From Acidimicrobiales bacterium (lineage in GTDB: Bacteria; Actinomycetota; Acidimicrobiia; Acidimicrobiales; SZUA-35), in assembly GCA_024644005.1 (NCBI GenBank), contig JAHELU010000009.1:1-41501 (forward strand): 41,501 bases of DNA, in the 5' to 3' direction. The notes below the pieces were generated by a model that ran no database searches, was not told the origin of the DNA, and saw only the letters and a list, made by a program, of their open reading frames with translations. A program made the translations under genes and the position numbers. Shown here piece by piece: positions 6,694-29,369 of the stretch (positions within the stretch are counted from its first letter, which is position 1; each line of letters starts with the position of its first letter).

Positions 6694-6959
6694 CCGACTC
6701 TCTCGACAGCTCTCGACAACGCAGACCTCGGCGTGAACCGGCATGCAACCGGCTCATCTCGGATCATGCGCCCGGCAGGCTCGGCTGTCAATCGTCAGCG
6801 GGGGAGTGGTGGCCAGGCGGCGGCAGCGCCGTGCAGTACGCCACTCCAAGCCGCCTCCAAGCTGGCCCCTAGGGCCATCGCCGACAGTGTCGATACCGAA
6901 CATCGGGCGGTACGGCGGGCCTCGGCACGCCACGTCGCCCTCAACTGAAAGACACTGAC

Positions 6960-9821: not shown

Positions 9822-11300
9822 TCAGCGCAGCTGGCTCCGAACCCGCTTGCCGGTGGCGGTCAGTGGCAACCGGTCGACGACGTGGATCGACGTGGGGATC
9901 TTGTATCTGGAGAGCCGCTGACGGCAGTGGTCGACGATCGACTGGCGGTCGACGTCGCCACCGCCCACCGTGGTCACATAGGCGACGACCCGCTCACCGG
10001 CCACCTCGTCCGGTTCGCCGATCACGACTGCGCTCTCGACATCGCCGTGGGTCTCGATCACCGCCTCCACCTCTGCGGGGAAGACGTTGAAACCCGAGAC
10101 GTTGATCAGGTCCTTGCTCCGGCCAACGAGGTACAGGGTGCCGTCGTCGTCCTGGATCGCCACGTCGCCGGTACGGCACCAGCCGTCGGAGATCAGTACC
10201 TCCGCCGTTGCCGCTGCGTCGTCGAGGTACCCGTGGAAGACCGAGCCGGTGCGGATCCAGACCTCTCCTCTGTCACCCTGTTCGACCTCCAGGCCGTCCT
10301 CGACCAGCCGCAGCTCGACGTCGTCGAGCGGCCGGCCGACCGATCCCGGGTGGCGACGAGCGGCCAGCTCCAAGGCGACCGTTCCCGCGGTCTCGGTGAG
10401 CCCGTAGCCCTGAGCCAGTTCGAGCCCGAAGCGCTCGTGCACCGCATCGGCGATCGCCGGATTGAGGGTGCTGGCCCCGGTGCGGGCGAAGGTGACCGAT
10501 CGCATGGCATCCTCGGCGCCATGACCGCCGGCACTGGCCAGCGCATCCCACATCGGCGGCACCCCGACGACGTGGGTGACCTGGTGACGGGCGATCAGCT
10601 CCAGCGCTGCTTCGGCCTCCCAGGGGGCCTGCAACACGACCGTTGCGCCGACCCGCAGGCTCGGCAGCAGACACATGTTGAGTCCGAGGACATGGGTCAG
10701 CGGCAGGGCGGCCAGTGTGACGTCGCCCGCGGCCAGACCGGGCCCGACCCGGATGATGCGCTGCTGGGCCAACACGAGGTTGTCGAGGGTCAGCACGGCG
10801 GCCCGAGGTGCGCCGACGATGCCGCTCGTGTGGAGGATCGCTCCGGCCTGCGACCCATCGATGTCCAGCGGCGGTGCCGGCTCGACGTCGGGGAGCGGGG
10901 GGAGCTCTGACGACGGGCTGCCGGCCGCAGTGCCGACGGCGGACCGATCGATCACGTCGGCAGCCACGGCCTCGGCGACTCGTTCCGCCGTGCTCGGGCC
11001 GGCGATCAGCGCCCTGGGGCTCAGCGCCTCGATGCGCTCGTTGATGACCGGCTGCGGATCTCGCGACGTGATCGGGCACGCCACGGCGCCGACGGCTTGG
11101 GCGGCCAGCAGCCCGGTGACGAACGCGGTGTCGTTCACGCCGAGGACGACCACCCGATCACCGACGGTGACCCCGGCGGCCAGGAGCCCGCCCGCAGTCC
11201 TGGCGACATGGTCGGCCAGCTCTCCGTAGGAGACCGCGCCCCCCGGTTCGATCAGGGCCGCCGCCGTCGGCGAGTGCGTTGCGATCAGTTCGTTACGCAT
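9822..11300 (-). CDS. class I adenylate-forming acyl-CoA synthetase / AMP-binding protein
   Basis: ILHTSGIVGAPRAAVLTLDNL, YGLTETAGTVAL, GWCRTGDVAIQDDDGTLYLVGRSKDLINVSGFNVFPAEVEAVI, TATGKRVRSQLR. Confidence 0.94.
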   Translation of the reverse strand: MRNELIATHSPTAAALIEPGGAVSYGELADHVARTAGGLLAAGVTVGDRVVVLGVNDTAFVTGLLAAQAVGAVACPITSRDPQPVINERIEALSPRALIAGPSTAERVAEAVAADVIDRSAVGTAAGSPSSELPPLPDVEPAPPLDIDGSQAGAILHTSGIVGAPRAAVLTLDNLVLAQQRIIRVGPGLAAGDVTLAALPLTHVLGLNMCLLPSLRVGATVVLQAPWEAEAALELIARHQVTHVVGVPPMWDALASAGGHGAEDAMRSVTFARTGASTLNPAIADAVHERFGLELAQGYGLTETAGTVALELAARRHPGSVGRPLDDVELRLVEDGLEVEQGDRGEVWIRTGSVFHGYLDDAAATAEVLISDGWCRTGDVAIQDDDGTLYLVGRSKDLINVSGFNVFPAEVEAVIETHGDVESAVVIGEPDEVAGERVVAYVTTVGGGDVDRQSIVDHCRQRLSRYKIPTSIHVVDRLPLTATGKRVRSQLR

Positions 11301-11428
11301 GGGTCCCGTCTCCGTGTCGATTCGTCAGTCGATCGTACCGTGTGCCTCGCCACTCTCCCTTACAGCGTCAGTCAGGTATCGATTCGGGAGCTCGGGTCGA
11401 GCGGCTCGGGTCCTGTGGAGCATTGGTG

Positions 11429-12217
11429 TCAATCGGGGGGTCGAGGCGTCGGCACGATGCCGTTCGACGAGGTCGTCTCGGCGTACCGGTCGACGTAGCG
11501 CTGGCCGGACAGCTGGGCGATCTCGAACATCACGTCGTCGGTCAGGTTCCGGTAGGCCCGTCGGTCCTTGGGTCGGTAGCGATGGAACTCGAGCGGCTCA
11601 CCGATCTTGAGCCCGCAATCGCCCCGCAGCTTCGGGAGTCGGCTGCCCGGCGGCTGCACCTCGCCGGTGCCGGTGATGCCGACCGGAACGATCGGGGCCC
11701 CCGACTTGAACGCGAGCCACGCCAGGCCGGTGTGACCTCGATAGAGCATGCCGTCCCTGCTGCGGGTGCCCTCCGGGAAGATCCCGAGGCACTCGCCGGC
11801 CTCGAGCACACCGAGACCGCTCCGCATGGCCGCAAGCGCTGCCTTGCGGCCGCCTCGATCGACCGGGATCATGCCGAGCGCCGGGAAGAGCGCCTTGGTC
11901 AACCGGGTCTCGAGGTACTCCGCCTTTCCCATCAGCCAGACCCGACGGCGCAGCTCGAACATCAGCAGGGGCGAGTCGATGAACGACACGTGATTGGCGG
12001 CCAGGATGGCCGGACCGGTGGTCGGCAGGTTGTCCATCCCCTCGACGGTCAGCTGCCACCCCTTGGCGAGCGCCCCGGTCAGCAACCTGAGGCCGGCGTA
12101 CGTCACCCGATTGACCGGCCGCTCGGTCAAGGTGATCGCGGCGGGGACGCTCCGCGACGAGTTCGCCGTGTCGGACCCGACCGACTCGGCCGGACGAGCG
12201 GCGGCATCCTGGAGCAT
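11429..12217 (-). CDS. 1-acyl-sn-glycerol-3-phosphate acyltransferase (PlsC family)
   Basis: NHVSFIDSPLL (HX4D) and FPEGTRSRDGML motifs. Confidence 0.94.
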   Translation of the reverse strand: MLQDAAARPAESVGSDTANSSRSVPAAITLTERPVNRVTYAGLRLLTGALAKGWQLTVEGMDNLPTTGPAILAANHVSFIDSPLLMFELRRRVWLMGKAEYLETRLTKALFPALGMIPVDRGGRKAALAAMRSGLGVLEAGECLGIFPEGTRSRDGMLYRGHTGLAWLAFKSGAPIVPVGITGTGEVQPPGSRLPKLRGDCGLKIGEPLEFHRYRPKDRRAYRNLTDDVMFEIAQLSGQRYVDRYAETTSSNGIVPTPRPPD

Positions 12218-12289
12218 CCCCTCATCATCATCCAGTGGTCACACCGTCGCAAGGCGCCCAGCGTGCCGTTCGTCACGGCCGATCGACCG

Positions 12290-13867
12290 TCAGCCGGTGT
12301 CCTCTTCGGCGAGGCTGGTCCGCCGGATCTTGCCGGTCGGCGTGCGAGGCAGCTCGTCGACGAAGGTGATGTCGCGGGGAACCTTGTGCCTGGCCAGCTG
12401 GGCCGCAACCAGCTCCCGGATCTCGGTCGGTCCGAGCACGGCACCGGGAGCCGGGACGACGAACGCCGCGAGCCGTTGACCGAAGTCGGGATCGCTGACC
12501 CCGACCACCGCCGCATCGGCCACATCGGGATGGGCCAGCAGCACGTCCTCGACCTCTCCTGGGAACACGTTCTCCCCGCCGCTGATGATCATGTCGTCGG
12601 CCCGGCCGGTGACGAACAGCCTGCCCTCGCGGTCGAAGTACCCGACGTCGCCAGACGACATGCGACCGTCGATCACCTCCTTGGACCCACCGCCGGTGTA
12701 ACCGGAGAATTGAGCGGCGTTGCGAACGAATATCCGGCCCTCGATCCCCGGGGCGCACGCTCGTCCGTCGCGGTCGAGAATGACCACCTCCGATCCCGGC
12801 ACGACCCGACCGGCGGTACCGGGAGCAGCCAGGAGATCGGCGGGCGTGGCGATGGTGGCCTGCCCGACCTCGGTCGACCCGTACAGGTTGTAGAGGTGCT
12901 CGCCGACGCGATCCATCCATGCCGTGGCAACCGGAGCCGGCAGCGCCGAGCCGCTGGTGGCCACGATCCGCAACGTCGTCATCGCGCTCGGATCGATGTC
13001 CTCGTCAGCCAGTAGCCGCTGCAGCATGACCGGCACGACGGCGAGAACCGTGGCTCGATGCTCGATCACCGAGCGGACGGTCTGCTCGGTGGAGAACCGG
13101 GGCGAGACGATCACCGGTGAGCCGAGCGACGCGGCGATGATGAGCTGGCTGAGCCCCCAGGCGTGGAACAGGGGACAGGCGATGACGAAGATGTCGCCCT
13201 GTTGGTAGGGGATCAGGTTCATGATGCCGGACGCCGCTCGTGGGTCGGTCGCCGTGCCTCGCCTCGCCCCTTTCGGCACGCCGGTCGTTCCGGACGTGAG
13301 CAGCACCGGACTGCTGAGCCGGGGCAGCAGCAGGTTCGGGCGCCGGCGACCGATACGGCGGATCTCCCCGATCGAGTCCTGACCGTCGACCTGGCCGTCG
13401 GCGATGATGACGGGCCGGTCCCATCCGGCGGCCTCGGCGACGTGATGGAGGCTGGCATCACAGACCAGGCCGGCAACCTGCTCGCGCTCCAACACCTCGG
13501 CCAACTGGGGCCCGGCGAAGCCGGTGTTGAGGTAGACGGCGTTCAGGCCGGCCTTGGCCGCGGCGAGATTCGCCTCGACGAAGTCGCGATGGTTGTGGCA
13601 CAGGATCCCGATGTTGCGACCGGGTCGTAGCCCCTGAGCCGCCATGCCCTTGGCGAGCGAGCTCGAGCGGCGGTCGAGCTGGGCGAACCGCAGCGTTCCC
13701 CGGTGGTCGATGACGGCGGGTCGGTTCGGGTGGCGCAGCGCTGCGGCACCGTAGAAGGTCGCGATCGACGGGCCCCATCTGGTAGCGGCACCGGCCACCG
13801 AGGCCAGCCGGGCCGGGTCGAGGAGGCCCATTCTCCTCACCACGTCGAGCGATTCCCGTGCCCCCAT
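12290..13867 (-). CDS. acyl-CoA synthetase / AMP-binding protein
   Basis: LLTSGTTGVPKGARRG, YGSTEVGQATIA, SSGDVGYFDREGRLFVTGRADDMIISGGENVFPGEVEDVL, TPTGKIRRTSL. Start placed at ATG 13867 (MGARESLDVVRRMG). Confidence 0.93.
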   Translation of the reverse strand: MGARESLDVVRRMGLLDPARLASVAGAATRWGPSIATFYGAAALRHPNRPAVIDHRGTLRFAQLDRRSSSLAKGMAAQGLRPGRNIGILCHNHRDFVEANLAAAKAGLNAVYLNTGFAGPQLAEVLEREQVAGLVCDASLHHVAEAAGWDRPVIIADGQVDGQDSIGEIRRIGRRRPNLLLPRLSSPVLLTSGTTGVPKGARRGTATDPRAASGIMNLIPYQQGDIFVIACPLFHAWGLSQLIIAASLGSPVIVSPRFSTEQTVRSVIEHRATVLAVVPVMLQRLLADEDIDPSAMTTLRIVATSGSALPAPVATAWMDRVGEHLYNLYGSTEVGQATIATPADLLAAPGTAGRVVPGSEVVILDRDGRACAPGIEGRIFVRNAAQFSGYTGGGSKEVIDGRMSSGDVGYFDREGRLFVTGRADDMIISGGENVFPGEVEDVLLAHPDVADAAVVGVSDPDFGQRLAAFVVPAPGAVLGPTEIRELVAAQLARHKVPRDITFVDELPRTPTGKIRRTSLAEEDTG

Positions 13868-13932
13868 GCGGTCCCGCCTCCCAACGGCTCTCACCCATCC
13901 TTGCAGACGGTCACCTGGATATGGAGATCTGC

Positions 13933-14052
13933 CGGCGGAGAATCCGCCGAGCAGCGATCCTGCGACCAGCGATCTCGCAGGCAAGATTTTGCGAACAATA
14001 CCACGCAAGGGCTTGGCATTGTTCGCTCTGCGAACTATAGTACGTGCACGTA
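13933..14052 (+). promoter_or_regulatory. promoter/operator region of the KAT-tailed phasin-like gene
   Basis: TTGGCA (14013-14018)-N17-TATAGT (14036-14041). GTTCGCtctGCGAAC (14021-14035) lies in the spacer; palindrome TACGTGCACGTA at 14041-14052; upstream IRs at 13933-13949, 13959-13981 and 13991-13999/14018-14026. Confidence 0.7.
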
Positions 14053-14102
14053 ACCCACACCACATGCGCCACCCGCGGCGCTGCACAAGGAGAACCCCCA
14101 AC

Positions 14103-14474
14103 GTGAGTGTTGCCGAACAGATGACCGAGACCCAGGAACGAATCCTCTCCGAGGTCGAGAGCGCCCAGGACCGGATGATCGAGATGAACCAGCGCATCGC
14201 CGAGGCGATGACCAGGATGCTGCCGGGCGAGCGGTACCAGCTCCGGTCCCTTCCGGGGATGGGCGAGCTGCCGCACCCCAAGGAGCTCGTCGACACCTAC
14301 TTCGACTTCGCCGCCAAGATGACCGAGGCCAATCGCTCCTTCTACAAGGAGATGTTGGAGATCTGGGCGCCGGAGCAGCCGGCCGAGGACGTCGAGAAGA
14401 AGGCCACCAAGGCCACCAAGGCCACCAAGACCACCAAAGCCACCAAGAAGACCACCAAGGCCAAGAAGGCCTGA
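14103..14474 (+). CDS. phasin-like polyhydroxyalkanoate-granule protein with lysine-rich KAT-repeat (histone-like) C-terminal tail
   Basis: GTG start; SVAEQMTETQERILSEVESAQDRMIEMNQRIAEAMTRML ... YFDFAAKMTEANRSFYKEMLEIW helical phasin-like core; tail KKATKATKATKTTKATKKTTKAKKA. Confidence 0.72.
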   Translation: MSVAEQMTETQERILSEVESAQDRMIEMNQRIAEAMTRMLPGERYQLRSLPGMGELPHPKELVDTYFDFAAKMTEANRSFYKEMLEIWAPEQPAEDVEKKATKATKATKTTKATKKTTKAKKA

Positions 14475-15984: not shown

Positions 15985-16032
15985 GCAGCGACACTAGTCT
16001 GGGTGAGCGCGGCAGGAGTAGGCGAGGAATCC

Positions 16033-17010
16033 ATGTTGTCTTCGAACGGTCGTGGCCAGCCGCGCGTCACGCTGGTTCTCGGCGGCGGCTGGATCTTGGG
16101 CGGCTCCTTCCACGCCGGCGTGATCCTGGCCCTGCGCGATGCGCTCGGCATCGACGCCCGCCACGCCGTCACCGTTGTCGGCACCTCGTCCGGCGCAGTG
16201 GCCACGGCACTGATCGGGGCGGGTGTCAGCCCCGAAGACCTCTATCGCCGCGAGCACGGCCTCGCACTGTCCGAGCAGGGGCAGGAGCTGCTCGGCCGGG
16301 TTCGCCGTCGCTCGTCGGGGAACGACCGCCGGTCGATGCCCAACCCGTTGCCCGCCGCGCCCGGCGTGCTGGCCAGAGCCGCCTCCCGCTCGGGCCGGCA
16401 GGCGCCTGCCGCAATCGCCGCCGGCCTGCTGCCTCGGGGGACGGTGCCCCACAACCGGCTCCGCCACTACGTCGACGATCTGACAAACGCCTCGTGGCCA
16501 GACGGCCCGAATCTCCGCTTCTGTGCGATCGACATGCGCCGGGCCAGCCGGGTCGTCATCGACCGCTCGTGGCCGACGACACCGGGACTGGCGGTTGCGG
16601 CCTCCTGTGCGATCCCCGGACTGCATGCGCCGGTCAGGATAGGGGAGCTGGAGCTGCTCGACGGGGCGCTGCACTCGGCGGACAATCTCGACTGCGTGGC
16701 CGAGGACGAGTCCGATCTCATCGTCGTCAGCTCACCGCTCGCTGCAGACTCACCGGTCGACTGGGTGAGGCCCTTGGCCCTGCTGCGCAACACGGTGCGG
16801 CAGCGGACCGAGCTCGACCGCCGCACCGTCGACGGCCGGCCCGTCGTGGTGGTCCAGCCGGGCCCGACCGACGTCCGTGTCATGGGAGCCGACCTCAACG
16901 ACCGGCGGCGGCGGGGCGATGTGGCCAGGCGGGCCTACCTGACCGCCTGCGCTGCGCTCGCCGATGGCGGGCCGGACCGGGGTGGGCACCGGGTGGCCGG
17001 GCAAACCTGA
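16033..17010 (+). CDS. patatin-like phospholipase/lipase
   Basis: LVLGGGWILGGSFHAGVILAL oxyanion motif, GTSSGA (GxSxG), LLDGAL (DG) motif. Start at ATG 16033 or 16003. Confidence 0.9.
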   Translation: MLSSNGRGQPRVTLVLGGGWILGGSFHAGVILALRDALGIDARHAVTVVGTSSGAVATALIGAGVSPEDLYRREHGLALSEQGQELLGRVRRRSSGNDRRSMPNPLPAAPGVLARAASRSGRQAPAAIAAGLLPRGTVPHNRLRHYVDDLTNASWPDGPNLRFCAIDMRRASRVVIDRSWPTTPGLAVAASCAIPGLHAPVRIGELELLDGALHSADNLDCVAEDESDLIVVSSPLAADSPVDWVRPLALLRNTVRQRTELDRRTVDGRPVVVVQPGPTDVRVMGADLNDRRRRGDVARRAYLTACAALADGGPDRGGHRVAGQT

Positions 17011-17089
17011 CCACACCGGCTCGTCTCCCGGCGATGGGACCGCCGCCGGCCACTGGTGCCGGTGACGCCCCGGCCGTACCATCTCAGCA

Positions 17090-18764: not shown

Positions 18765-20207
18765 TCAGGCCTCGGCGAGGAGCTCCTCGTAGGCCCGTTC
18801 CACGTCTTCGCGCAGCGCAGCGGGCTCTGTGATGGCCGCAGGATCGATGGTCATGGCCAGGTGCATCGTGTCGAGATAGGAGATGACGGCAACGATCATC
18901 GCGGACCCCGCGACAGGGCCCGGTGCGAAGATCCCGGTCATCTCGTGGCCACCGATGTAGAGCTGCTTGCTGGTCGACCGCACGTTGGTGGTCGCGAAAT
19001 CGATGCTGGCAGCCTGGGCCCTGGCCGTGCTCGTTGTCAACGAGGTCGGTAGCAGGTTCACCACCCCGGCCAGGCCCCCCATCATGCCACCTCCGTACAC
19101 CTTCGACCGCTGCTGCCCGACACGTTCCTGGACGGCCCGGACCCGGTCTTCGACGCTCATCGGGCCGGCCGGTACCTGCACACGGACCGGCGTGAAGGAG
19201 TTGCCCCCCTCGGCGCTGTCGGTTCTGGTCGAGACGACGAACGAGGTGTTGAACGCCTCGGCTGGGCGCCCCCGGGCCTCGTGATGGGCGACCGCTCCGT
19301 TGATCAGGCCGGTCATGAAGACATCGTTGACCGAGGCGTCGAGGGCCTTGGCCGCACGCTTGACGTCGCCGAGCGGGACCCGGAGGATCTCCAGGTGTCG
19401 GTGCCGGGAGCGTCCGGTCCACAGCGGCGAGCCGGCGTTGCCGGCGCCATCGTCCTGTCCCTGCTGGACTTGGGATGCCACCATGCGGCCGTACTTCTGC
19501 GCCGACTCCGCGGTGTCGAGCCAGATCCCGGGATCGGCTGCGGCGAGGGACGCTCTGGCCATGACGGCCCGGCCGATCTTCGGTGGCGTGGCCACGACGT
19601 CGACGGCCCGCTTCGACCAGCCGCTGCGGCCCCGCTCCCGTTCCTCGGCGGCGCACGTCTCGGCCACCAGCGCATCGAGATCGACCTCGTCCGGAACGGG
19701 CGTGTCCGGGTCACGGACCATGAACCGCTCCTGCATCCTGGCCATGCCGTAGCCGTCTGCGATGGAGTGGTGGAGCTTCATCAGCAGTGCCGAGCGGTCG
19801 CCGTCGAGCCCGCCGATCAGCGTCACCTGCCACAGTGGCCTGGTCCGGTCGTAGGGCTCCTGCATGGCCAGGGCGACGTAGTCCAGGAGCCCACGCTCGC
19901 TCCGATCGCCGGCGAGGACGACGTGGCGGTAGTGGTACCGGAAATCGAACTCGGGATCGGCGGCCCAGGTCGGCCGCTCGTATCGACCGATGCCCGGCAT
20001 CACTCGCTCCCGCAACCGGGGTAGGGCGGCAACCGCCGCACGGAGCCACCGCTCGAACACCTCGCCGTCGACGTCGCCGTCGATGATGCTGAGCGACCCG
20101 CCGCTCGGGTTCAGCCACGGGTCCTTCTCGATGTTCCACATCAGGGCTTCGGCCGGCGACATCTGGCGCTCGAAGCGCGATCCTCGTCCCTGCGATTCGG
20201 AGCTCAT
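18765..20207 (-). CDS. WS/DGAT-family wax ester synthase/acyl-CoA:diacylglycerol acyltransferase (divergent N-terminus subclass)
   Basis: LHHSIADGYG (HHxxxDG). Starts MSSESQGRGSRFERQMSPAEALMWNIEKDPWLNPSGG; start overlaps the upstream stop (20204-20207 ATGA). Confidence 0.93.
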   Translation of the reverse strand: MSSESQGRGSRFERQMSPAEALMWNIEKDPWLNPSGGSLSIIDGDVDGEVFERWLRAAVAALPRLRERVMPGIGRYERPTWAADPEFDFRYHYRHVVLAGDRSERGLLDYVALAMQEPYDRTRPLWQVTLIGGLDGDRSALLMKLHHSIADGYGMARMQERFMVRDPDTPVPDEVDLDALVAETCAAEERERGRSGWSKRAVDVVATPPKIGRAVMARASLAAADPGIWLDTAESAQKYGRMVASQVQQGQDDGAGNAGSPLWTGRSRHRHLEILRVPLGDVKRAAKALDASVNDVFMTGLINGAVAHHEARGRPAEAFNTSFVVSTRTDSAEGGNSFTPVRVQVPAGPMSVEDRVRAVQERVGQQRSKVYGGGMMGGLAGVVNLLPTSLTTSTARAQAASIDFATTNVRSTSKQLYIGGHEMTGIFAPGPVAGSAMIVAVISYLDTMHLAMTIDPAAITEPAALREDVERAYEELLAEA

Positions 20208-21676
20208 GCCTTGCGCCTCTTCAGCTTCAAGGCCTTGAAGAGCGTGTCGATCTCCTCGAGGTGGAGATCGACCAGGAGCTCCAGATCGGGGACGAGCTCC
20301 CGGCACGAGACGAGTCCGATGTCGAGCGTGTCGAGGTAGCTGTGGACCGTGATGTTGAGCCCCATGCCCTCGGCGATGGTGGAGACCGGGTAGTAGTGCT
20401 GCATCTCGGCACCGGCGACGTACAGCGGTTGACGGGGACCCGGGACGTTGGAGATGACGACGTTCACCACCGGATTGGTCTGGTCGGCCAGTCTCATCGA
20501 GCTGGCGAGCCTCGCGGCCTGGACGGCCAGTGCCGGCGAGGAGAAGTTGGCCAGATCGACCAGGGCGTCGGCAGGCACCATCTCGAACTGGTCCTTCGCC
20601 GCCTCCATCGCCACCCGCGTGACCTCGATCCGCTCGAGCGGGTCGTCGACGTTGGTCGGCAGCGCGGCCACGAGTCCCGAGACGCGATTGGTCCATCGGT
20701 CCGCCTCGTCCCCGGTCCGGATCGAGACCGGGACCATGGCCTGGAGCGGTTCCTCCGGGAGGGCGTCGTGGTGGAGGAGGTACTGTCGCAGCGCGCCGGC
20801 ACAGATCGCCATGACCACGTCGTTGACGGTGGCACCGGCCTTGGTCTTGAGCTTCTTGATGTCGCTCAGTGGCACGGAGCGCATGGCCAAGCGACGGTGC
20901 GGGGTGATCGACCGGTTGAACGGCGTCCGCGGGGCCGTCATCGACGGGGTCCCGAGCTGATCGTCGCCGTTGGTCGATGATCTTCGGGACCTCGGCAGCT
21001 GCCGCCTGGCATTGGCCACCATGGTCTCCAGCCCCCGGTTGCGGGTGATCTCGGCCATCTGCTGCAAGGCATTGAGCTGGACTCTGGCCAGTCGAGCCGG
21101 CCGTCTCATGTAGGAGCTGACCGTGCGGCTCAACAGCTCGAGGTCGGTCGGGATCGAGTCGGGCTTCCACACGCCCTTGTCCGGCGCGATCTCGTCACCG
21201 GCCGGATCGGCGTCCAGCAGGATCGTCAGGAGCTCGACGCCGGAAGCACCGTCGACGGTGGCGTGATGGATCTTGGTCAGCACGGCGAAGTCGTCGTCCT
21301 CGAGGCCTTCCATGACGTAGGCCTCCCACAGCGGCTTGCTCCGGTCCATGGGCCGACCGATGATCCTCGCCACCTGGGCCGCCAGTTGCTCGAGGTCACC
21401 CGGTGGGGGAATGGCGATGTGGCGAACGTGGAAGTCGATGTCGAAGTCGGGATCGTTGATCCAGTAGGGGTGATCCAGTCCCATCGGGACCTCGACCAGC
21501 CGGCGGCGGAACGGATCCAGCAGGTGCAGCCGGCTCTCGACCTGGGCCTTGAAGGCCTCGTACGGCTGGTAGTCCGGGGTGGGGCGACGATAGATGCCGA
21601 GCCCGCTCACGTGCCCGAACGACCTCGGCGTCTCCATGTAGAGGAAGCTGGCGTCGAGTCCGGTCAGTTGTTTCAT
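20204..21676 (-). CDS. WS/DGAT-family wax ester synthase/acyl-CoA:diacylglycerol acyltransferase (canonical N-terminus)
   Basis: MKQLTGLDASFLYMETPRSFGHVSGL; IHHATVDGASG (HHxxxDG); VVISNVPGPRQPLYVAGAEM. Confidence 0.96.
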   Translation of the reverse strand: MKQLTGLDASFLYMETPRSFGHVSGLGIYRRPTPDYQPYEAFKAQVESRLHLLDPFRRRLVEVPMGLDHPYWINDPDFDIDFHVRHIAIPPPGDLEQLAAQVARIIGRPMDRSKPLWEAYVMEGLEDDDFAVLTKIHHATVDGASGVELLTILLDADPAGDEIAPDKGVWKPDSIPTDLELLSRTVSSYMRRPARLARVQLNALQQMAEITRNRGLETMVANARRQLPRSRRSSTNGDDQLGTPSMTAPRTPFNRSITPHRRLAMRSVPLSDIKKLKTKAGATVNDVVMAICAGALRQYLLHHDALPEEPLQAMVPVSIRTGDEADRWTNRVSGLVAALPTNVDDPLERIEVTRVAMEAAKDQFEMVPADALVDLANFSSPALAVQAARLASSMRLADQTNPVVNVVISNVPGPRQPLYVAGAEMQHYYPVSTIAEGMGLNITVHSYLDTLDIGLVSCRELVPDLELLVDLHLEEIDTLFKALKLKRRKA

Positions 21677-22737
21677 CGGTCTTCTCCGGGGGAGGTCGGT
21701 TGGCTGGCGAGCGCGGCCTCGATGAGGCCGTGGAGCTCGTGGATCGACTCGGTGGGACGACCGAGCTCGAACGCCTCGGCTGGGGTCGCAAGGCCGTTGA
21801 CGACGAGGTGGACCAGGTTGATGAGTGGGGTCTGAACACTTGTCCGTCGAGCCAGTTCCAGCATGTTGTCGACGCTCTTCACCCCTTCGGCCACCATGTT
21901 GGTGGTGGCGGAGATCTCCTCGACGGTCCGGCCCGCCGCCAGCTCCCGGCCGAAGTGATGGTTGCGGCTCTCAGAGCTGAGGCAGGTGGCCACGAGGTCG
22001 CCCTGGCCGGCCAGGCCGAGGAACGTCTCGGGTCGGGCGCCGAGGGCCGAGCCCAGGGACGCCATCTCGACCAGGCCCCGACAGATCAGCGCCGAGATCG
22101 AGTTGTGCCCGTGGTCGAGCCCAGCTGCGATACCGGCGGCGACGGCGATGACGTTCTTGATGGAGCCGCCGAGCTCGCAGCCGATGATGTCATCATTGGT
22201 GTACACATCGAATCGGGGACCGCTGAACACCGGCTGCAGCCCGTGGGCCAGGTCGAGGTCCCGGAAGGCCAGCACGGTCGCCGCCGGCTGGCCGCGCACG
22301 ATCTCACGGGCCAGGTTCGGTCCGCTGAGGACCCCGACGGTCTCGTGCCCGCCGAGTGCCTCGCCGATCACCTGTGTCGGTCGCAGCAGCGTCTCGTCCT
22401 CGATGCCCTTGGAGAGGCTGACGATCGGGACCGTCGGCGCCACCGAGCCACGAAGCCCGCCGACGACACGTCGGATGTACTGCGTCGGCACGGCGACGAC
22501 GATCAGCGAGATGTCCCGGGCGGCCTCGTGGATGTCGCCGGTGGCCCGCAGGGCAGGTGGCAGCTGAACCTCCGGGTGGAACAGCGGGTTCTCGTGCCGC
22601 TGGTTCACCGCCTCGACGATCTCGTCCTCGAGGGCCCAGAGGGTCACCGCATGACCGTGCTCGGCCAGGAGGGCCGCCATCGCCGTGCCCCACGAGCCGG
22701 CGCCGATCACCGCCACTCGTTTGTACTCGTCGCTCAT
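21673..22737 (-). CDS. gpsA: NAD(P)-dependent glycerol-3-phosphate dehydrogenase
   Basis: VAVIGAGSWGTAMAALLAEHGHAVTLW, CELGGSIKNVIAVAAGIAAGLDHGHNSISALICRGLVEM; ATGA overlaps at both ends. Confidence 0.97.
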   Translation of the reverse strand: MSDEYKRVAVIGAGSWGTAMAALLAEHGHAVTLWALEDEIVEAVNQRHENPLFHPEVQLPPALRATGDIHEAARDISLIVVAVPTQYIRRVVGGLRGSVAPTVPIVSLSKGIEDETLLRPTQVIGEALGGHETVGVLSGPNLAREIVRGQPAATVLAFRDLDLAHGLQPVFSGPRFDVYTNDDIIGCELGGSIKNVIAVAAGIAAGLDHGHNSISALICRGLVEMASLGSALGARPETFLGLAGQGDLVATCLSSESRNHHFGRELAAGRTVEEISATTNMVAEGVKSVDNMLELARRTSVQTPLINLVHLVVNGLATPAEAFELGRPTESIHELHGLIEAALASQPTSPGEDR

Positions 22738-23264
22738 CCGGCCTTCTTCGAACCGGCCCGCTTGGCGCCGGCCTTCTTGGAACTGGTCTTCTTCGGGCCG
22801 GCCTTTTCCGGGCCGGCCTTCTGGCCGTCGTCGGTGTCGGCCGGGGTTTCGTCTGCCCGATCGGCAGAGGAGTCGGAACTGCCGCGGCGGAGACCCTGCC
22901 CCGTCATCAGGGCCATGATGTTGGCGAACGGCTCCTGGTAGGCGACGATCTGCTCGCCGGCCAGCGCCAGTCGCTCGGCCGTGATCTCGATGTGAGCCAG
23001 CCGATCGTCGAGCTCGCTGAGCTGTTGGCGCTGCTCCGCCAGCTCGGCTCGCAACGCCTCGATCTGGGCCAGGGGGGGACCGAACGCGTCCATCATGTCG
23101 CTCATGGCCTTGACGGCGTCCGTCGGGAACATCAGCTGGGAGATGCCGTCGAGCACGGCCTGGCGCTGTTCTGCCGACATCGTGTAGCGGGCGAACGACT
23201 CCTGCATCCGCCGGAGCGCGTCGCGTCCGGCCTGGATCGTGTCGAGGAAATCGGGCTCAGCCAT
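22734..23264 (-). CDS. coiled-coil/phasin-like protein with lysine-rich KKAG tail
   Basis: MAEPDFLDTIQAGRDALRRMQESFARYTMSAEQRQAVLDGISQLMFP...AQIEALRAELAEQRQQLSELDDRLAHIE; tail KAGPEKAGPKKTSSKKAGAKRAGSKKAG. Overlaps both neighbours by a few nt. Confidence 0.75.
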   Translation of the reverse strand: MAEPDFLDTIQAGRDALRRMQESFARYTMSAEQRQAVLDGISQLMFPTDAVKAMSDMMDAFGPPLAQIEALRAELAEQRQQLSELDDRLAHIEITAERLALAGEQIVAYQEPFANIMALMTGQGLRRGSSDSSADRADETPADTDDGQKAGPEKAGPKKTSSKKAGAKRAGSKKAG

Positions 23265-24729
23265 CGAGCACCACACCTCCAGCGGCGAGGAGCTCGCCAT
23301 AGGCTTCGGTCATGCAGTCGGTCAGGTCGCCGGGGTCGTCGACTGCAGCAGGGTCGATGAACATCCCGATGTGCAGGTTCCCGTTGTAGGAGATGGTCGT
23401 CATGTTGAAGGCGGTACCGGCCACCGGACCCATGGTGACGGTCTCCAGGACCTCTGCGCCGGACATGAAGGTGGGGAACGGAGCGGCTCGCAGGTTGGAG
23501 GTGGCGAAATCCATCTTGGCCGCCTGCGACCTGGCGAGCTGGGTCACGACCGATGTCGGCATCAGGTTGGCCAGACCGGCGAGACCGCTGAGGGCCCCCT
23601 CGCCGCTGATCGCCTCCCGCTTGGCCGCCATGCGGTCCCGAACGTCGTGGAGGCGCTCCTCCGGTGACAGGTCGCCGCCCGGGATCTGAACCGGGGTCGG
23701 GGTGAAGGAGTTGCCGCCGATCGCCTTGTCGCTCCTGGTGCTGACCACGAAGCTGATGTTGAGTGCCTCGACCTCGGTTTCGCGGCGGGAGTGATAGGCC
23801 AGGGCGCCGTTGACGGCCCCGGCGACGAACATGTCGTTGACGCTGGCCCCCATGGCCTTGCCGGCGGCCTTGACCGCGTCGAGCGGGATGACCAGCGACT
23901 CGAGGTGTCGCCGGCGCGATCGGTTGGTCCACAGCGGTGAGCCGCCGGCGGTTCCGCCTTCTGCCGGGCTGAGTTGCCTGACCGCCTCGCCGACGTTTCC
24001 GACGAGGTCGCCGACCACGTCCTGGGCACGACTGGGATCGGCCGACCACAGCGCCGCCTCGCCCATCGCCCGCTTGGCGATCCCGGCCTGCCGCCGCCAG
24101 ACGTGGCCGAGCGACTGGGTGGCGGAGCCGAGGGTCGACGCCCGCTCGCCTCCCCGGTCCTCGTCCCCCTCTGCGGCGATCGCCTCCTCGATCACGCGAT
24201 CGAGGTCGACGGCGGGGGGCAGATCTGCTTCTCGCTCGGCCTCCATGTACAGCTCGGACAACCGGACGGCCCCGATGCCGTCGGTTATCGAGTGGTGCAT
24301 CTTGGTGAACAGAGCCCCTCGCCCGCCCTCGACGCCGTCGATGACCACGAAGAGCCACAGCGGGCGGGTCCGGTCGTAGGGGTCCTCATAGAGCTGGGTG
24401 GCGAGATCGTAGAGCTGGCGAATGGTGCCCGGGGCCGGTAGCCCGATGTGGCGGAGGTGGTAGCCGAGGTCGAACTCGGGGTCCGTCGACCACGTCGGGG
24501 GCGACAGCCGGCCGAAGCCGGACACCACTCGCTCCCGGAGCCGAGGGATCTTGGACACCGCATAGGCCATTCGATGGCGGAGCTGGTCGACGTCGATCGG
24601 TCGATCGAGCACCGAGACCATGGCGCCGCTCGGGTTGAGCCAGGGGTCCTTCTCGATGTTCCACATCAGGGCTTCGGCATCGGACATCTTGCGCTCGAAG
24701 CGCTGCTCTCGTTCTGGGCGTTCTGCCAT
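23257..24729 (-). CDS. WS/DGAT-family wax ester synthase/acyl-CoA:diacylglycerol acyltransferase (divergent N-terminus subclass)
   Basis: RFERKMSDAEALMWNIEKDPWLNPSGAMVSVLDRP; MHHSITDGIGA (HHxxxDG). Confidence 0.93.
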   Translation of the reverse strand: MAERPEREQRFERKMSDAEALMWNIEKDPWLNPSGAMVSVLDRPIDVDQLRHRMAYAVSKIPRLRERVVSGFGRLSPPTWSTDPEFDLGYHLRHIGLPAPGTIRQLYDLATQLYEDPYDRTRPLWLFVVIDGVEGGRGALFTKMHHSITDGIGAVRLSELYMEAEREADLPPAVDLDRVIEEAIAAEGDEDRGGERASTLGSATQSLGHVWRRQAGIAKRAMGEAALWSADPSRAQDVVGDLVGNVGEAVRQLSPAEGGTAGGSPLWTNRSRRRHLESLVIPLDAVKAAGKAMGASVNDMFVAGAVNGALAYHSRRETEVEALNISFVVSTRSDKAIGGNSFTPTPVQIPGGDLSPEERLHDVRDRMAAKREAISGEGALSGLAGLANLMPTSVVTQLARSQAAKMDFATSNLRAAPFPTFMSGAEVLETVTMGPVAGTAFNMTTISYNGNLHIGMFIDPAAVDDPGDLTDCMTEAYGELLAAGGVVLDG

Positions 24730-24737
24730 CTTCTTCC

Positions 24738-26156
24738 TCAGGTGTCGGTGCCGGGCCGACGATCGGCCTCTTCTTTCGGGTTACCGGCATAACCCGGCGG
24801 ATAGGTCAGCGCCAGCTCTTCCTCGGTCGGCGTGTGGGGGATCCTGGCCTCGGGGGGCAGCAGGTCCACGATGGCCGACATGATCCGCTTCGTGTCGGCA
24901 TCCACGCTGCGGTAGCGGAGCTCGACCGGTGGTCCGACCCTGACCGTGATCATCGGCGGATCGGTGGTGTCCATGTTCGGCAGACGCTGGCTGCGAGGCC
25001 ACACCTTCTCGGTGCCCCACAGCCCGACCGGGATGACCGGGGCCTTCGTCGCGTGGGCCAGTCGAGCAGCACCCCACCGGCCCTTGAGCTCGGTCTCGAA
25101 GAACGCCGGACCTCGAGGGATCGTGCCCTGGGGCGCCATCGAGATCAGCTGACCCGCCTGGAGTGCCTGGATGGCCGCCTCCAGTGGTTCGTCGGACCCG
25201 GTGCCTCGATCGACCCGGATGCCGCCCATCATCTTCGACAGCTGACCGATGATCGGCGCATCGAACACCTCCTTCTTGCCGAGGAACCGGGCCGGTCGGC
25301 CCGCCTTGGCCAGCGTGAAGTTGACGGCGCTCGAGTCGAAGTAGCTGCGATGGTTGAACACCACGATGGCCGCTCCCTCCTTGGGGATGTGCTCGGTGCC
25401 CTCGATGTCGAACCTCGCGTTGGCTGCCAGCTCGGGCCGGTTGAGCGGGCGCAGCCAGTCCTGGAGCTCCCGGCCGGCCACCTTGACCACGCCGGGGGGG
25501 ACGTCGAGGTGACGGATCGGCCAATCGTTGAGCCTGGCCACGATCGTCAGCTGGGCGTCGGGATTCACCGCCACCGGGTGGCCGACGGTCCGCAGCATCG
25601 GGACGTCGTACACGCTGTCGGAGTACGCATAGCTGGCGCCGAGGTCGATCTTGTGCTCCCTGGCCCAGTGCTTGATGGCGGTCATCTTGTTCCGGCCCCA
25701 CAGGAAGCGGCCCTCGAGATGACCGGAGTAGACGTCGCCGTCGGTGGCCCACTCGGTGGCGAAGACGTGCTCCATGCCCAACCGGTCGGCCAGCGGCTGG
25801 ACGAAGCAACGAGGGCTGGTGGTGGCCAGCACGGGGAGCCGGCCGGCTTCCCTGTGCTCCTCGATGAGGATGCGACCATAGGGCTGGACCCGCTCGATGA
25901 GCTCCTCGGCTGCCGCCTCCATGGCCTTGGCGACATCCACGATCGGCCACCCCTTGGCCCCCCGTACGGCGTAGCGGGCCGCCTGCATGGCGAACGGGTT
26001 CTCGCCGACGAGCTCGTACACCTTGTAGAGGGCGTCGACGGCGGGGATCTGGGGTGTGCTCGAGACACCGGCCTCGGCGAGATGGTGCTGGAACACCGGG
26101 GCGGTGGATCCGGCGATCAACGTCCGATCGAGGTCGAAGATGGCGAGTGCGGTCAT
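24738..26156 (-). CDS. bifunctional HAD-IB family phosphatase / 1-acylglycerol-3-phosphate acyltransferase
   Basis: MTALAIFDLDRTLIAGS (HAD DxDxT), ASYAYSDSVYDVPMLRTVGHPVAVNPD, then PlsC NHRSYFDSSA (HX4D) and MAPQGTIPRG. Start ATG at 26156. Confidence 0.95.
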   Translation of the reverse strand: MTALAIFDLDRTLIAGSTAPVFQHHLAEAGVSSTPQIPAVDALYKVYELVGENPFAMQAARYAVRGAKGWPIVDVAKAMEAAAEELIERVQPYGRILIEEHREAGRLPVLATTSPRCFVQPLADRLGMEHVFATEWATDGDVYSGHLEGRFLWGRNKMTAIKHWAREHKIDLGASYAYSDSVYDVPMLRTVGHPVAVNPDAQLTIVARLNDWPIRHLDVPPGVVKVAGRELQDWLRPLNRPELAANARFDIEGTEHIPKEGAAIVVFNHRSYFDSSAVNFTLAKAGRPARFLGKKEVFDAPIIGQLSKMMGGIRVDRGTGSDEPLEAAIQALQAGQLISMAPQGTIPRGPAFFETELKGRWGAARLAHATKAPVIPVGLWGTEKVWPRSQRLPNMDTTDPPMITVRVGPPVELRYRSVDADTKRIMSAIVDLLPPEARIPHTPTEEELALTYPPGYAGNPKEEADRRPGTDT

Positions 26157-27658
26157 CTGGTCTCCTGGGTTCTCTTGGAGGATGTACGGGATCTGCGGGA
26201 GGTTCGGACGAGCTCGGCCGCCGCCTCCTCGATGCTGCCCATCAGCGGCCACAGGTCGTCGATCGCGTCCCGGCAGGCGAGGAGGCCGAAGTCGATCGAG
26301 CCGTTGTAGGACGACAGCGTGATGTTGAGCCCCGCCCCGTCGGTGATCACCGGCACGGGGAAGGAGGCGACGAGGGGGGCGCCGGAGCAGAACAGCCGGT
26401 ACTGGGGACCGGGGATGTTCGAGATCACGACGTTGAACGGCGGGTTCGTCATGTCGGCCAGCTTGGTCCTGGCCACCAGCCTGGCCACCCGGGCCGCAAC
26501 GGCCGGCGGTGCGAACTGGGCGAAGTCCTGCAGGGTGTCGGCCGGCAGGGCGGCGTGCTCGGTCTTGGCCAGCTCCATGGCCTCATGCGCCAGCCGAAGC
26601 CGTTCGAGGGGATCTGGTCGGTTCGTCGGCAGGGGAGCGATCATCGCAGAGATGCGATTGCCGGGCCGGCGGGAGTCGACGTCCGTTCTCACCGAGACGG
26701 GCACCATCGCCAGTACGGGATCGGTCGGGAGCTCGTGGCGGCTCTCCAGCCAGGTCTGGAGGGCGCCGGCGCAGATGGCCATGATGACGTCGTTGACCGT
26801 GACCCCGTGGCGGTCCTTGATCTCCTTCACCTCGTCGAGGGAGATGGAGCCGAAGGCATAGCGACGGTGGGCCGAGATGGACCGGTTGAACGACAAGCGA
26901 GGCGCAGCCAGGGCCGGTCGCGACAGGAAGTCGTCCGGCTGGTCGGGCTCCGGTACGAGATGGGCGAGACCGGGCGTCCGCTGCATTGCTTCCTGGATCG
27001 TGGCCACGGTTGGCGCCACCTGCCTGCGACCGGTCTGGAGCGCAGCCGCCAGGACTCGGCGCTGCAGCCTGACCTGGAGCCTCGGCTGGGTGGCCAGGGC
27101 GGCGAGGCCCCGGCCGAGCATCTCCATCGTGCTCGGGACGCGATCGGGACTCCAGGGCACGGCCTGGGCCGCCGCAGGCCGACTGTCGGCGCCGGTGTCG
27201 AGGAGCGTGGTCAGGACCTCCGTGCCGGTGATCCCGTCGACACAGGCGTGGTGGATCTTGGTGTACTGGGCAATCAGCCCGCCCTGGAGGCCCTCGATCA
27301 GGTACAGCTCCCACAGGGGTCGAGAGCGGTCGAGGGGACGACCGTGGAGCCGGCCGATCAGCTCGGCCAGCTTGGCGTCGTCTCCCGGTCGTGGTACGGC
27401 GATGTGACGGACATGGAAGTCGAGGTCGAACTCCTCGTCCTCGATCCAGTAGGGCCGATCGATCCCGAACGGGACCGTCATCAGCCGTCGACGGAACGGA
27501 ATCAGCTCGTGGAGCCGCTCCTCGACCAGCTGCTTCACCGAATCCAGGGTCATGGCGGCGTCGCCGGGGTCGAACAGGGCGAGGAACCCGACGTGGCCGT
27601 GGACCGTCGGCGTCTCGATGTTGAGGAAGTTGGCGTCGAGGCCACCGAGCTGCTCCAC
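26153..27658 (-). CDS. WS/DGAT-family wax ester synthase/acyl-CoA:diacylglycerol acyltransferase (canonical N-terminus)
   Basis: GTG start, VEQLGGLDANFLNIETPTVHGHVGFLALFDP; IHHACVDGITG (HHxxxDG); VVISNIPGPQYRLFCSGAPL. Confidence 0.95.
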   Translation of the reverse strand: MEQLGGLDANFLNIETPTVHGHVGFLALFDPGDAAMTLDSVKQLVEERLHELIPFRRRLMTVPFGIDRPYWIEDEEFDLDFHVRHIAVPRPGDDAKLAELIGRLHGRPLDRSRPLWELYLIEGLQGGLIAQYTKIHHACVDGITGTEVLTTLLDTGADSRPAAAQAVPWSPDRVPSTMEMLGRGLAALATQPRLQVRLQRRVLAAALQTGRRQVAPTVATIQEAMQRTPGLAHLVPEPDQPDDFLSRPALAAPRLSFNRSISAHRRYAFGSISLDEVKEIKDRHGVTVNDVIMAICAGALQTWLESRHELPTDPVLAMVPVSVRTDVDSRRPGNRISAMIAPLPTNRPDPLERLRLAHEAMELAKTEHAALPADTLQDFAQFAPPAVAARVARLVARTKLADMTNPPFNVVISNIPGPQYRLFCSGAPLVASFPVPVITDGAGLNITLSSYNGSIDFGLLACRDAIDDLWPLMGSIEEAAAELVRTSRRSRTSSKRTQETR

Positions 27659-28614
27659 TAGCCCGCCCCGTTCTCTTCGCCGTCTGCGGCCCCGCCGGTG
27701 GCCTTGGGGTTGGGCCGAGGGAACCCCGGGCGTCGAGTGCCGGGGCGATGGAACGGCTGCCACTCGTGGATCGGCTGAGCGAGGCGGTCGGCGACGACGT
27801 AGATCGCCATCGGATTGCTGGGCAGACCGATGTGACTGCCGACCACCTCGACGTTCTCCACCGGGCCCGTGGAGCGATCGAGGCAGGACCGCCAGGCGAC
27901 GACACCGTCGCTCTTCGAGAAGATCGATGTGGTCGGAACCGGTGGGGCCTCGGCCATGCGCGCCGCGAAGTCGGCCGGGAGCGACGAGACCCGGGTCCCG
28001 CTGGCAGCCTCGAACATCGGCCACACGTGGTTGGCCTTGAGGTCGTTGATGGGAGATCCGAGCGTGACGACGAAGCGCACCCGCTCGGGGGTGAACCGCG
28101 CCACCTCTCTGGCGTAGACCCCGCCGAGGCTGTGGCCGATCAGCGTCACCGGTTGGCCCCGCTCGTCACTGACCTCGTGGACCCGGTCGGCCGCGACGTG
28201 CACGAGCCGATGGAGGCCGAGCACCTCGGGATGACCCCAGGGATGGACGTCGTAGCCACGGTTGCCGAGGAATCGTCGCAGCCCGACGGTGAACTGATCG
28301 GCGGCGCCGAACGGCGGCAGCACGATGATGGGGTGACCGTCGCCCTTCGGCAGCCGGGTCAGGAGCGGGCTCGACAGCAGCCCCAGCGCCCCCTCGAGCG
28401 CAGCGCGGCCCTCGAGCGCCATCAGTAGCGGGTTCGGTGCCTTCGTTGCGGGCTGTGCCCTCGACTGTGCCGTCGACTGTGCCGTCGACTGTGCGGTCGG
28501 CTGTGCCGTCGACTGTGCGGTCGAGTCCGCGGAGTCGGGAGTCGAGTGCGCCGTGGTGTGCGCAGGCGGATCGGCCGGCGGATCAGGGCTGGAAGCGGGA
28601 GTCGAGCGGACCAC
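27658..28614 (-). CDS. alpha/beta hydrolase (lipase-like) with low-complexity STAQ-repeat N-terminus
   Basis: IIVLPPFGAADQFTVGLRRFLGNRGYDVHPWGH, LIGHSLGGVYAREVAR (GxSxG), SKSDGVVAW. Confidence 0.88.
   Translation of the reverse strand: MVRSTPASSPDPPADPPAHTTAHSTPDSADSTAQSTAQPTAQSTAQSTAQSRAQPATKAPNPLLMALEGRAALEGALGLLSSPLLTRLPKGDGHPIIVLPPFGAADQFTVGLRRFLGNRGYDVHPWGHPEVLGLHRLVHVAADRVHEVSDERGQPVTLIGHSLGGVYAREVARFTPERVRFVVTLGSPINDLKANHVWPMFEAASGTRVSSLPADFAARMAEAPPVPTTSIFSKSDGVVAWRSCLDRSTGPVENVEVVGSHIGLPSNPMAIYVVADRLAQPIHEWQPFHRPGTRRPGFPRPNPKATGGAADGEENGAG
28450..28530. repeat. about 12-bp tandem repeat (gtcgactgtgcc/g) encoding the STAQ/PTAQ N-terminal repeats
   Basis: ctgtgccgtcgactgtgccgtcgactgtgcggtcggctgtgccgtcgactgtgcggtcgag. 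Confidence 0.85.
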
Positions 28615-28632
28615 GATGAATCGACAGCTTAG

Positions 28633-28672
28633 TGTCAGTCACTGACAAGATGCAAAGACATACTTGTGTCTT
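28633..28672. promoter_or_regulatory. candidate operator cluster between the divergent TetR gene and the lipid operon
   Basis: Perfect 15-bp palindrome TGTCAGTcACTGACA (28633-28647) and AAGACA-N6-TGTCTT (28655-28672). Confidence 0.65.
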
Positions 28673-28730: not shown

Positions 28731-29369
28731 ATGGCCGACACCGTCACCGATTCTACGCCAGGGCGCCGGGAGCGGAAGAAGCGGCGGACCCGGGACGATC
28801 TCATCCAGCAAGCGGTTCGGCTGTTCGCCGCCAACGGCTTCGACGAGACCACCACCGAGGACATCGCCGAGGCCGCCGATCTGTCCCAGCGGACCTTCTT
28901 CCGCCACTTCTCCTCGAAGGAGGCGGTCCTCTACGGCGACATGGACGAGCTGCGGCTCAGGATGCGGGCTGCGCTCGCCGATCGCCCGGCCGACGAGCCA
29001 CCCATCGATGCCGTTCGCCAGGCCATCCTCACCTTGGCCGACAACTACGAGGCCGAGCGCGAGCACCGGCTCCTCCAGGCCAGGCTCGCCGCCGCCTATC
29101 CGGCCGTGTCGGCCTACAGTCGGGCCGTGGTGCAGGCCGAGTGGGAGCGGGAGCTGATCCGTGCCATCAGCGAACGGCTCGGGGTCGATCCCGTGATGGA
29201 CCCGAGGCCGGAGATCGTCGCCGGGGCCGCGATGTCGGCGCTGCGGGTCTCGATTCGGCGGTGGACGGCCTCGAGCGGCACCGATCACCTGCCGACGATC
29301 GTCGACGAGGCCTTCGACGCGTTGAGCGATCTGAGCCGCTTGGCCGCGGCCGGCCCCCCGGCCCAATGA
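28731..29369 (+). CDS. TetR/AcrR family transcriptional regulator
   Basis: RRTRDDLIQQAVRLFAANGFDETTTEDIAEAADLSQRTFFRHFSSKEAVLYGDMDEL. Confidence 0.95.
   Translation: MADTVTDSTPGRRERKKRRTRDDLIQQAVRLFAANGFDETTTEDIAEAADLSQRTFFRHFSSKEAVLYGDMDELRLRMRAALADRPADEPPIDAVRQAILTLADNYEAEREHRLLQARLAAAYPAVSAYSRAVVQAEWERELIRAISERLGVDPVMDPRPEIVAGAAMSALRVSIRRWTASSGTDHLPTIVDEAFDALSDLSRLAAAGPPAQ

Follow-up and report, generated by a model that had tools for sequence, protein, structure and literature searches.

How does a bacterium that stores triacylglycerol (TAG) control the genes that make the fat, and how are those genes put together? To our knowledge, the regulation of bacterial TAG storage is poorly known. 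The Acidimicrobiales are mostly uncultured, and a locus in a metagenome-assembled genome (MAG) from this order (GCA_024644005.1; 4.46 Mb, 83% complete, 2.4% contaminated) bears on both questions. The stretch that we analysed, here called the window, is one entire contig of this MAG (C83, JAHELU010000009.1, positions 1 to 41,501). Eight minus-strand genes at 18765-28614 encode four proteins of the wax ester synthase/diacylglycerol acyltransferase (WS/DGAT) family, a GpsA, a HAD-PlsC fusion, a hydrolase and a small coiled-coil protein. We consider it probable that they form a dedicated TAG-storage operon under local repression by a divergently encoded TetR-family regulator. Judged by comparison with related loci, this TetR gene and the palindromic site next to it are the best-supported new element.

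A conserved eight-gene operon

All eight genes are intact and open. In order of transcription they are as follows.

27658..28614, minus strand: gene A, an alpha/beta hydrolase (Abhydrolase_1, 30 bits, above cut-off), first gene of the operon, in a LipQ-like position
26153..27658, minus strand: gene B, WS/DGAT-1, classical subfamily, clade-specific, GTG start (PF03007 and PF06974; TIGR02946, 470 bits)
24738..26156, minus strand: gene C, a HAD-PlsC fusion, predicted phosphatase and acylglycerophosphate acyltransferase (AGPAT) (PF12710 and PF01553)
23257..24729, minus strand: gene D, WS/DGAT-2, divergent subfamily, core gene (both Pfam domains; tree; HAD-PlsC neighbour in many Acidimicrobiales loci)
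22734..23264, minus strand: gene E, a small helical coiled-coil protein with a Lys-rich tail, candidate lipid-inclusion coat or tether (no Pfam or NCBIfam family)
21673..22737, minus strand: gene F, the GpsA paralogue of the operon (both GpsA Pfam domains; separate clade)
20204..21676, minus strand: gene G, WS/DGAT-3, classical subfamily, core gene (TIGR02946, 463 bits)
18765..20207, minus strand: gene H, WS/DGAT-4, divergent subfamily, clade-specific (both Pfam domains; tree)

The junctions from gene A to gene H are -1, -4, +8, -8, -4, -4 and -4 nt. Four of them are ATGA overlaps (at 26153, 22734, 21673 and 20204), and genes A and B overlap by 1 nt in a TAGTG. A preliminary description of the locus had given these motifs and a set of genes joined by overlaps of 1-8 nt or one 8-nt gap; on re-reading, its coordinates and junctions were confirmed.

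It had also proposed a synteny search, and the full gene order was found in two other MAGs. These are among 79 loci retrieved by a contig search with an alignment of WS/DGAT-2 homologues. In locus L070 (uncultured Acidimicrobiaceae, CAMYLA010000011.1), the full set is present with its order kept, and one plsC is inserted between WS/DGAT-3 and -4. Locus L116 (Acidimicrobiia MAG, JAOTYQ010000025.1) has the eight genes and, inside the operon, a fifth WS/DGAT, a short-chain dehydrogenase/reductase (SDR) and a plsC. Given that the order recurs at protein identities of 61-85%, the arrangement is not due to chance. Gene A comes first in both relatives as well, and is 77-83% identical. Most of their junctions are equally tight; L070 has gaps of 75 and about 40-75 nt ahead of gpsA and plsC, and L116 has a larger one, of about 440-490 nt, ahead of plsC. 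The L070 contig resembles the window outside the operon too.

All eight genes are under purifying selection, with dN of 0.09-0.29 and dS of 0.69-1.05 for every gene when the window is compared with L070 or L116. Constraint is weakest in gene E. Two further loci, L071 and L106, have a smaller core consisting of HAD-PlsC, WS/DGAT-2, gene E and WS/DGAT-3, and keep the -8 nt overlap between WS/DGAT-2 and gene E. The HAD-PlsC and WS/DGAT-2 pair occurs in many other loci, several of which also have an acyl-CoA synthetase, WS/DGAT-3 or a hydrolase. By gene order and spacing, the operon is real and conserved, and the eight genes are presumably cotranscribed. The single operon of the preliminary description is thus upheld by the tight junctions and by the order kept in two other MAGs.

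A divergent TetR gene and its predicted operator

Three features lie upstream of gene A.

28731..29369, plus strand: TetR-family regulator, predicted repressor (TetR_N and TetR_C_14; closest solved relatives 2rae and 8x0a, both MftR)
28633..28647, minus strand: predicted operator TGTCAGTGACTGACA, with perfect palindrome arms, in the promoter spacer (conserved with TetR in relatives)
28626..28631, minus strand: predicted -10 element TAAGCT, immediately after the palindrome (comparison of 19 sites; TTGCAT, 18 nt further upstream, as -35)

The palindrome, TGTCAGTNACTGACA, has the form TGTCAG-N3-CTGACA and is located in the gap between the TetR gene and gene A, 18 nt ahead of the latter. At one mismatch or fewer, TGTCAGTCACTGACA at 28633-28647 is the sole match in the whole 4.46-Mb MAG.

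The site and the regulator occur together in relatives. We considered the 70 loci that have a full-length HAD-PlsC and enough upstream sequence, and accepted palindromes with at most one mismatch within 200 nt. A divergent TetR gene adjoins HAD-PlsC in 17 of these loci, and the palindrome is found in all 17, but in only 1 of the 53 loci without the gene (Fisher p = 2e-15, uncorrected for relatedness). In that single exception, the contig ends before a TetR gene could be seen. The palindrome precedes gene A in the window, L070 and L116, and HAD-PlsC in the other relatives that carry it.

The placement of the site points to repression. In 17 of 19 sites, a TANNNT sequence begins 0-1 nt after the palindrome, preceded at a distance of 17-18 nt by hexamers that resemble TTGAC or TTGCA. 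Because these predicted -35 and -10 hexamers flank the palindrome, the site would fill the promoter spacer, as expected of a repressor. A strict generic sigma-70 scan called no promoter at this position. The TetR protein is the predicted repressor of the operon through this palindrome.

A repressor with one predicted site, at a storage operon, would be a short handle on storage: one protein, one 15-bp site and one operon. The predicted site could also serve as a marker for storage operons in metagenomes.

A GpsA paralogue that belongs to the operon

Gene F has both NAD_Gly3P_dh domains over the cut-off (167 and 160 bits) and matches NF000942 at 385 bits. Another gpsA of the MAG lies on contig C50. 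When 45 GpsA sequences are placed in a tree, the operonic copy clusters with that of L116 and, more distantly, with that of L109, where gpsA adjoins a WS/DGAT and acyl-CoA synthetase pair. The remaining copies, including the second copies of all three operon-bearing genomes, fall outside this clade. The operonic GpsA of L070, which is 75% identical to that of the window, was omitted from the tree when duplicate entries were dropped. In a set of 60 genomes of the order, most carry a single GpsA; all three operon-bearing genomes carry two. From its place in the tree, the operonic GpsA is a separate, operon-dedicated paralogue, which suggests that the supply of glycerol-3-phosphate is controlled jointly with the acyltransferases. 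Rhodococcus jostii RHA1 has two gpsA genes, and the second is more abundant under nitrogen limitation, when TAG is stored, according to the available part of the RHA1 study (PMC4850399).

The paralogue also bears on the possibility that the genes serve phospholipid or membrane-lipid remodelling. They would then be a housekeeping Kennedy-pathway operon with no storage programme, in which the WS/DGATs act as an overflow valve. The accessible text on RHA1 calls atf9-plsB-plsC housekeeping and reports atf9 as less abundant under nitrogen limitation (PMC4850399), and HAD-PlsC genes occur widely in the order, often with no WS/DGAT beside them. However, the genome has a second GpsA and, on contig C117, a second HAD-PlsC, so the operon copies look specialised, and four WS/DGATs exceed what a valve would need. 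We regard a housekeeping role as distinctly unlikely.

Four WS/DGATs from two old subfamilies

All four WS/DGATs score above the Pfam thresholds for WS_DGAT_cat and WS_DGAT_C, and their motifs (HHACVDG, HHSITDG, HHATVDG and HHSIADG) are intact versions of HHxxxDG. The preliminary description had assigned four intact HHxxxDG enzymes to the final acyl transfer. They are indeed present and intact, but they are not equal and fall into two deep subfamilies. WS/DGAT-1 and -3 pass the TIGR02946 cut-off of 309.95 bits. WS/DGAT-2 (265 bits) and -4 (238 bits) score under this curated cut-off, which is why we assign them to a divergent subfamily and are less sure that they act as DGATs. A tree of 58 proteins, in which some long branches make deep placements unsure, has two deep, fully supported groups, one with WS/DGAT-1 and -3 and the other with WS/DGAT-2 and -4.

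Each subfamily contributes one core and one clade-specific enzyme. Relatives of WS/DGAT-2 and -3 occur throughout the order, and WS/DGAT-3 adjoins gene E in L071 and L106 too. For WS/DGAT-1 and -4, the loci compared contain orthologues in L070 and L116 only. A recent tandem duplication was rejected, since the deepest split of the tree separates the two pairs and none of the paralogues is young; the four enzymes are therefore old paralogues that were gathered rather than a recent expansion. In the whole MAG there are eight WS_DGAT_cat matches, four of them in the operon.

The WS/DGATs are a bifunctional family. The operon could therefore make wax esters or other acyl esters, and not mainly TAG, if its WS/DGATs differ in acceptor (a fatty alcohol, a hydroxylated lipid or a sterol). 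The mixture of two subfamilies in one operon would fit this idea, and the SDR inside the L116 operon could reduce or oxidise an acceptor. By contrast, the dedicated GpsA and the HAD-PlsC point to a glycerolipid backbone, and no fatty acyl-CoA reductase is present among the annotated genes of the window, where not every open reading frame was scanned. We think that a product other than TAG is unlikely. The pairing of the two subfamilies raises the question of whether the divergent enzymes use another acceptor, a point that matters for the reading of the many actinobacterial WS/DGAT paralogues.

Two of the WS_DGAT_cat matches outside the operon come from contig C309 (L065, 4952-7987), where a single open frame of 1012 residues has both catalytic domains. 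The first has SHSLTDG in place of HHxxxDG, and the second has HHALLDG.

The HAD-PlsC fusion

Gene C fuses a HAD-IB phosphatase, with its DxDxT, Lys and DxxxD motifs, to a PF01553 domain with NHx4D. These motifs are essentially invariant across 75-85 HAD-PlsC homologues, and the protein is a predicted phosphatidate phosphatase and AGPAT. The function of AGPAT-HAD proteins remains to be elucidated, according to the available text of a study of marine-sediment bacteria (PMC10351704). Motif III (the region of 25128 in the window) reads QGTIPRG in 60 of 85 HAD-PlsC proteins and EGTIPRG in the other 25. The Glu of the usual PlsC PEGT motif is thus replaced by Gln in the 60.

Gene E and the Lys-rich tails

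The core of gene E is helical and conserved, whereas its tail varies and is Lys-rich in the window and in L116. The AlphaFold model is helical but of low confidence (mean pLDDT 64, pTM 0.25), the tail included. The preliminary description called the protein phasin-like and of granule type, a label that goes back to composition only. We found no Pfam family, no NCBIfam family and no solved-structure match to a phasin, and no phasin family is among the matches listed (25 of 36 families; seven gene E members; E up to 1). We rejected the phasin assignment, which family and structure matches do not support; on the alignments, gene E is a member of a small uncharacterised helical family.

When the whole class was searched, with either the gene E sequence or its alignment as query, the genome of the window gave the only match, apart from weak ones. 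Among 30 genomes picked for WS/DGAT-2-type loci it was present in 9, so rarity and sampling account for the outcome of the class-wide searches. Of the 10 genomes in which gene E was seen, 8 have it beside a WS/DGAT or PlsC gene.

Thirteen of the 124 WS/DGATs of these loci (L026 and L078 being one locus) have a similar Lys/Ala-rich tail fused to the enzyme, which is of the WS/DGAT-2 or -3 type. The Lys-rich tail therefore occurs on the coiled-coil protein in the window and on a WS/DGAT in relatives. One of the thirteen is encoded in the MAG itself: at about 10002-11456 of L066 (MAG contig C227), a WS/DGAT that is 57% identical to WS/DGAT-3 has a long Lys/Ala/Pro-rich tail resembling those of histone H1 and HBHA.

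Gene E might be a DNA- or membrane-associated protein that is merely carried along in the operon. Lys-rich tails generally bind DNA, most relatives that have the core locus lack gene E, and in two genomes (G415 and G417) it is found apart from WS/DGAT genes. Its proximity to WS/DGAT or PlsC genes in most of the genomes that have it and the fusion of similar tails to WS/DGATs argue for a link to lipid synthesis instead. Moreover, MLDS, the major lipid-droplet protein of RHA1, binds DNA via its Lys-rich C-terminus (PMC5504291), so DNA binding and an inclusion role are compatible. A passenger protein is a serious possibility, but we lean against it.

Proposed function

Several lines of evidence lead us to favour TAG storage. 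Domains and motifs are intact, the operon is conserved under purifying selection and its core recurs in relatives. The operonic GpsA is separate, the TetR gene is associated with the palindrome, and there are precedents in RHA1 and Mycobacterium tuberculosis (PMC4850399, PMC10699116).

Without an inducer, TetR would sit on TGTCAGTNACTGACA between -35 and -10 and block the eight genes, and perhaps its own. The most likely signal would be an acyl-CoA or a free fatty acid. Upon induction, GpsA would produce glycerol-3-phosphate, which a PlsC-type acyltransferase encoded nearby would convert to lysophosphatidate. HAD-PlsC would acylate lysophosphatidate and strip off the phosphate, yielding diacylglycerol, to which the WS/DGATs would attach the third acyl group. 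Gene E may coat or tether the lipid inclusions, and the hydrolase may edit or remobilise acyl chains.

Some observations weigh against this proposal. The operon has no recognisable glycerol-3-phosphate acyltransferase (GPAT), PlsB type included, among its eight genes, and no genome-wide PlsB-specific search was made; PlsY was not found in the MAG, which is 83% complete. Where the preliminary description spoke of a near-complete assembly line, the lipid-storage enzyme set stands, but the wording was too strong given these gaps in the first acylation step. The divergent WS/DGAT-2 and -4 may use other substrates, and gene E has the sparse distribution described above, including the two genomes where it lies away from WS/DGAT genes. 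The TetR-palindrome count ignores relatedness, and two loci were counted twice, leaving 15 distinct loci with TetR. Finally, MftR, which the TetR protein resembles in sequence and in its TetR_C_14 domain, responds to long-chain acyl-CoA (PMC8728441), but its critical His (His68, oleoyl-CoA) aligns with Leu (GDFDAHL in 2rae versus GDMDELR) when mapped onto the TetR protein from the alignment with 2rae. Because this His is not conserved, the acyl-CoA signal is uncertain, and we keep it as a guess.

The missing acyltransferase could be encoded near the operon, in the following cluster.

9822..14296, minus strand: associated cluster FadD, PlsC (11429-12217) and FadD (domain annotation; three genes also in the L070 contig)

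It is located about 4.5 kb past the operon end. The same trio lies beyond the operon on the L070 contig, and a tetR-fadD-plsC arrangement occurs in other relatives. A PlsC related to the 11429-12217 protein is found inside the L070 and L116 operons, between WS/DGAT-3 and -4. On the strength of these positions, the PlsC-type proteins are candidates for the missing step, and the cluster is a candidate acyl-CoA source.

A broader idea can be offered only tentatively. A single-target TetR switch, with a sole operator in the genome, might run the whole fat-storage programme of Acidimicrobiales, and the Lys-rich tail might be an interchangeable module that tethers lipid-making enzymes or the inclusion to the nucleoid or membrane. 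We find this combination possible but doubtful.

Other features of the window

A patatin-like protein and a third acyl-CoA synthetase are encoded at 16003-18730 on the plus strand, facing the operon's end. On the other side, a plus-strand frame of 1841 residues (30599-36124) has biotin carboxylase, biotin carrier, ACC_central and carboxyl transferase domains. Its product would be a single-chain acetyl-CoA/acyl-CoA carboxylase, and none was seen in the compared stretches of the L070 contig. A minus-strand gene at 3490-6744 encodes a 1084-residue regulator with BTAD, AAA and TPR domains and a SARP-like build.

Comparison with known systems

The closest solved relative of the window's TetR protein is MftR (2rae, 8x0a; PMC8728441), with which it shares TetR_C_14 and a palindromic operator. 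The operators differ, however: that of MftR is T-N2-GGCA-N5-TGCC-N2-A, and that of the window TGTCAG-N3-CTGACA. Our strings of the palindrome were not found in PubMed Central (PMC) text, a search that would miss other spellings of the site.

HBHA/TadA and MLDS (PMC6176652, PMC10699116, PMC5504291) resemble the product of gene E in having a Lys-rich C-terminal tail and a link to lipid inclusions. This likeness is architectural only; gene E has no family match, and no direct homology search against these proteins was made.

The co-oriented WS/DGAT adjoining HAD-PlsC is arranged as in the Kennedy-pathway operon of mycobacteria and rhodococci. In the parts of the literature available to us, atf9-plsB-plsC(HAD) of RHA1 is transcribed as an operon (PMC4850399), and Rv2483c and Rv2484c of M. 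tuberculosis adjoin lipQ and a GPAT gene (PMC10699116). The RHA1 locus and the mycobacterial Rv2482c-Rv2485c locus (plsB2, plsC, Rv2484c, lipQ) thus have a WS/DGAT and HAD-PlsC side by side, as here, and the latter has a carboxylesterase alongside, like the hydrolase here. The relation to plsB2-plsC-Rv2484c suggested in the preliminary description therefore holds for this shared neighbourhood of HAD-PlsC, WS/DGAT and lipase. By contrast, these loci have a GPAT (plsB or plsB2) and one WS/DGAT, whereas the window's operon has four WS/DGATs and no GPAT. A gpsA, gene E or a divergent TetR with a palindrome is not reported in the available portions of these papers (PMC4850399, PMC10699116).

Clusters of WS/DGAT, HAD-AGPAT, AGPAT and acyl-CoA synthetase, with lipases and glycerol-3-phosphate dehydrogenase nearby, were described in marine-sediment Actinomycetota, including Acidimicrobiia (Galvan et al. 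2023, PMC10351704, as far as its text was available). A four-WS/DGAT operon, a dedicated GpsA, gene E and a TetR-palindrome pair are not described in that text. In a limited check of the open-access literature, we found no description of an operon that combines four WS/DGATs with a GpsA of its own, gene E and the TetR-palindrome pair. Within that check, the claim that no such operon had been described holds for the exact set, but not for the theme of WS/DGAT with HAD-PlsC, which is published (PMC10351704, PMC4850399, PMC10699116). To these known systems, our comparisons appear to add the pairing of TetR with its palindrome, a GpsA paralogue in three genomes that all have an ordinary GpsA elsewhere, and Lys-rich tails that alternate between gene E and the WS/DGATs.

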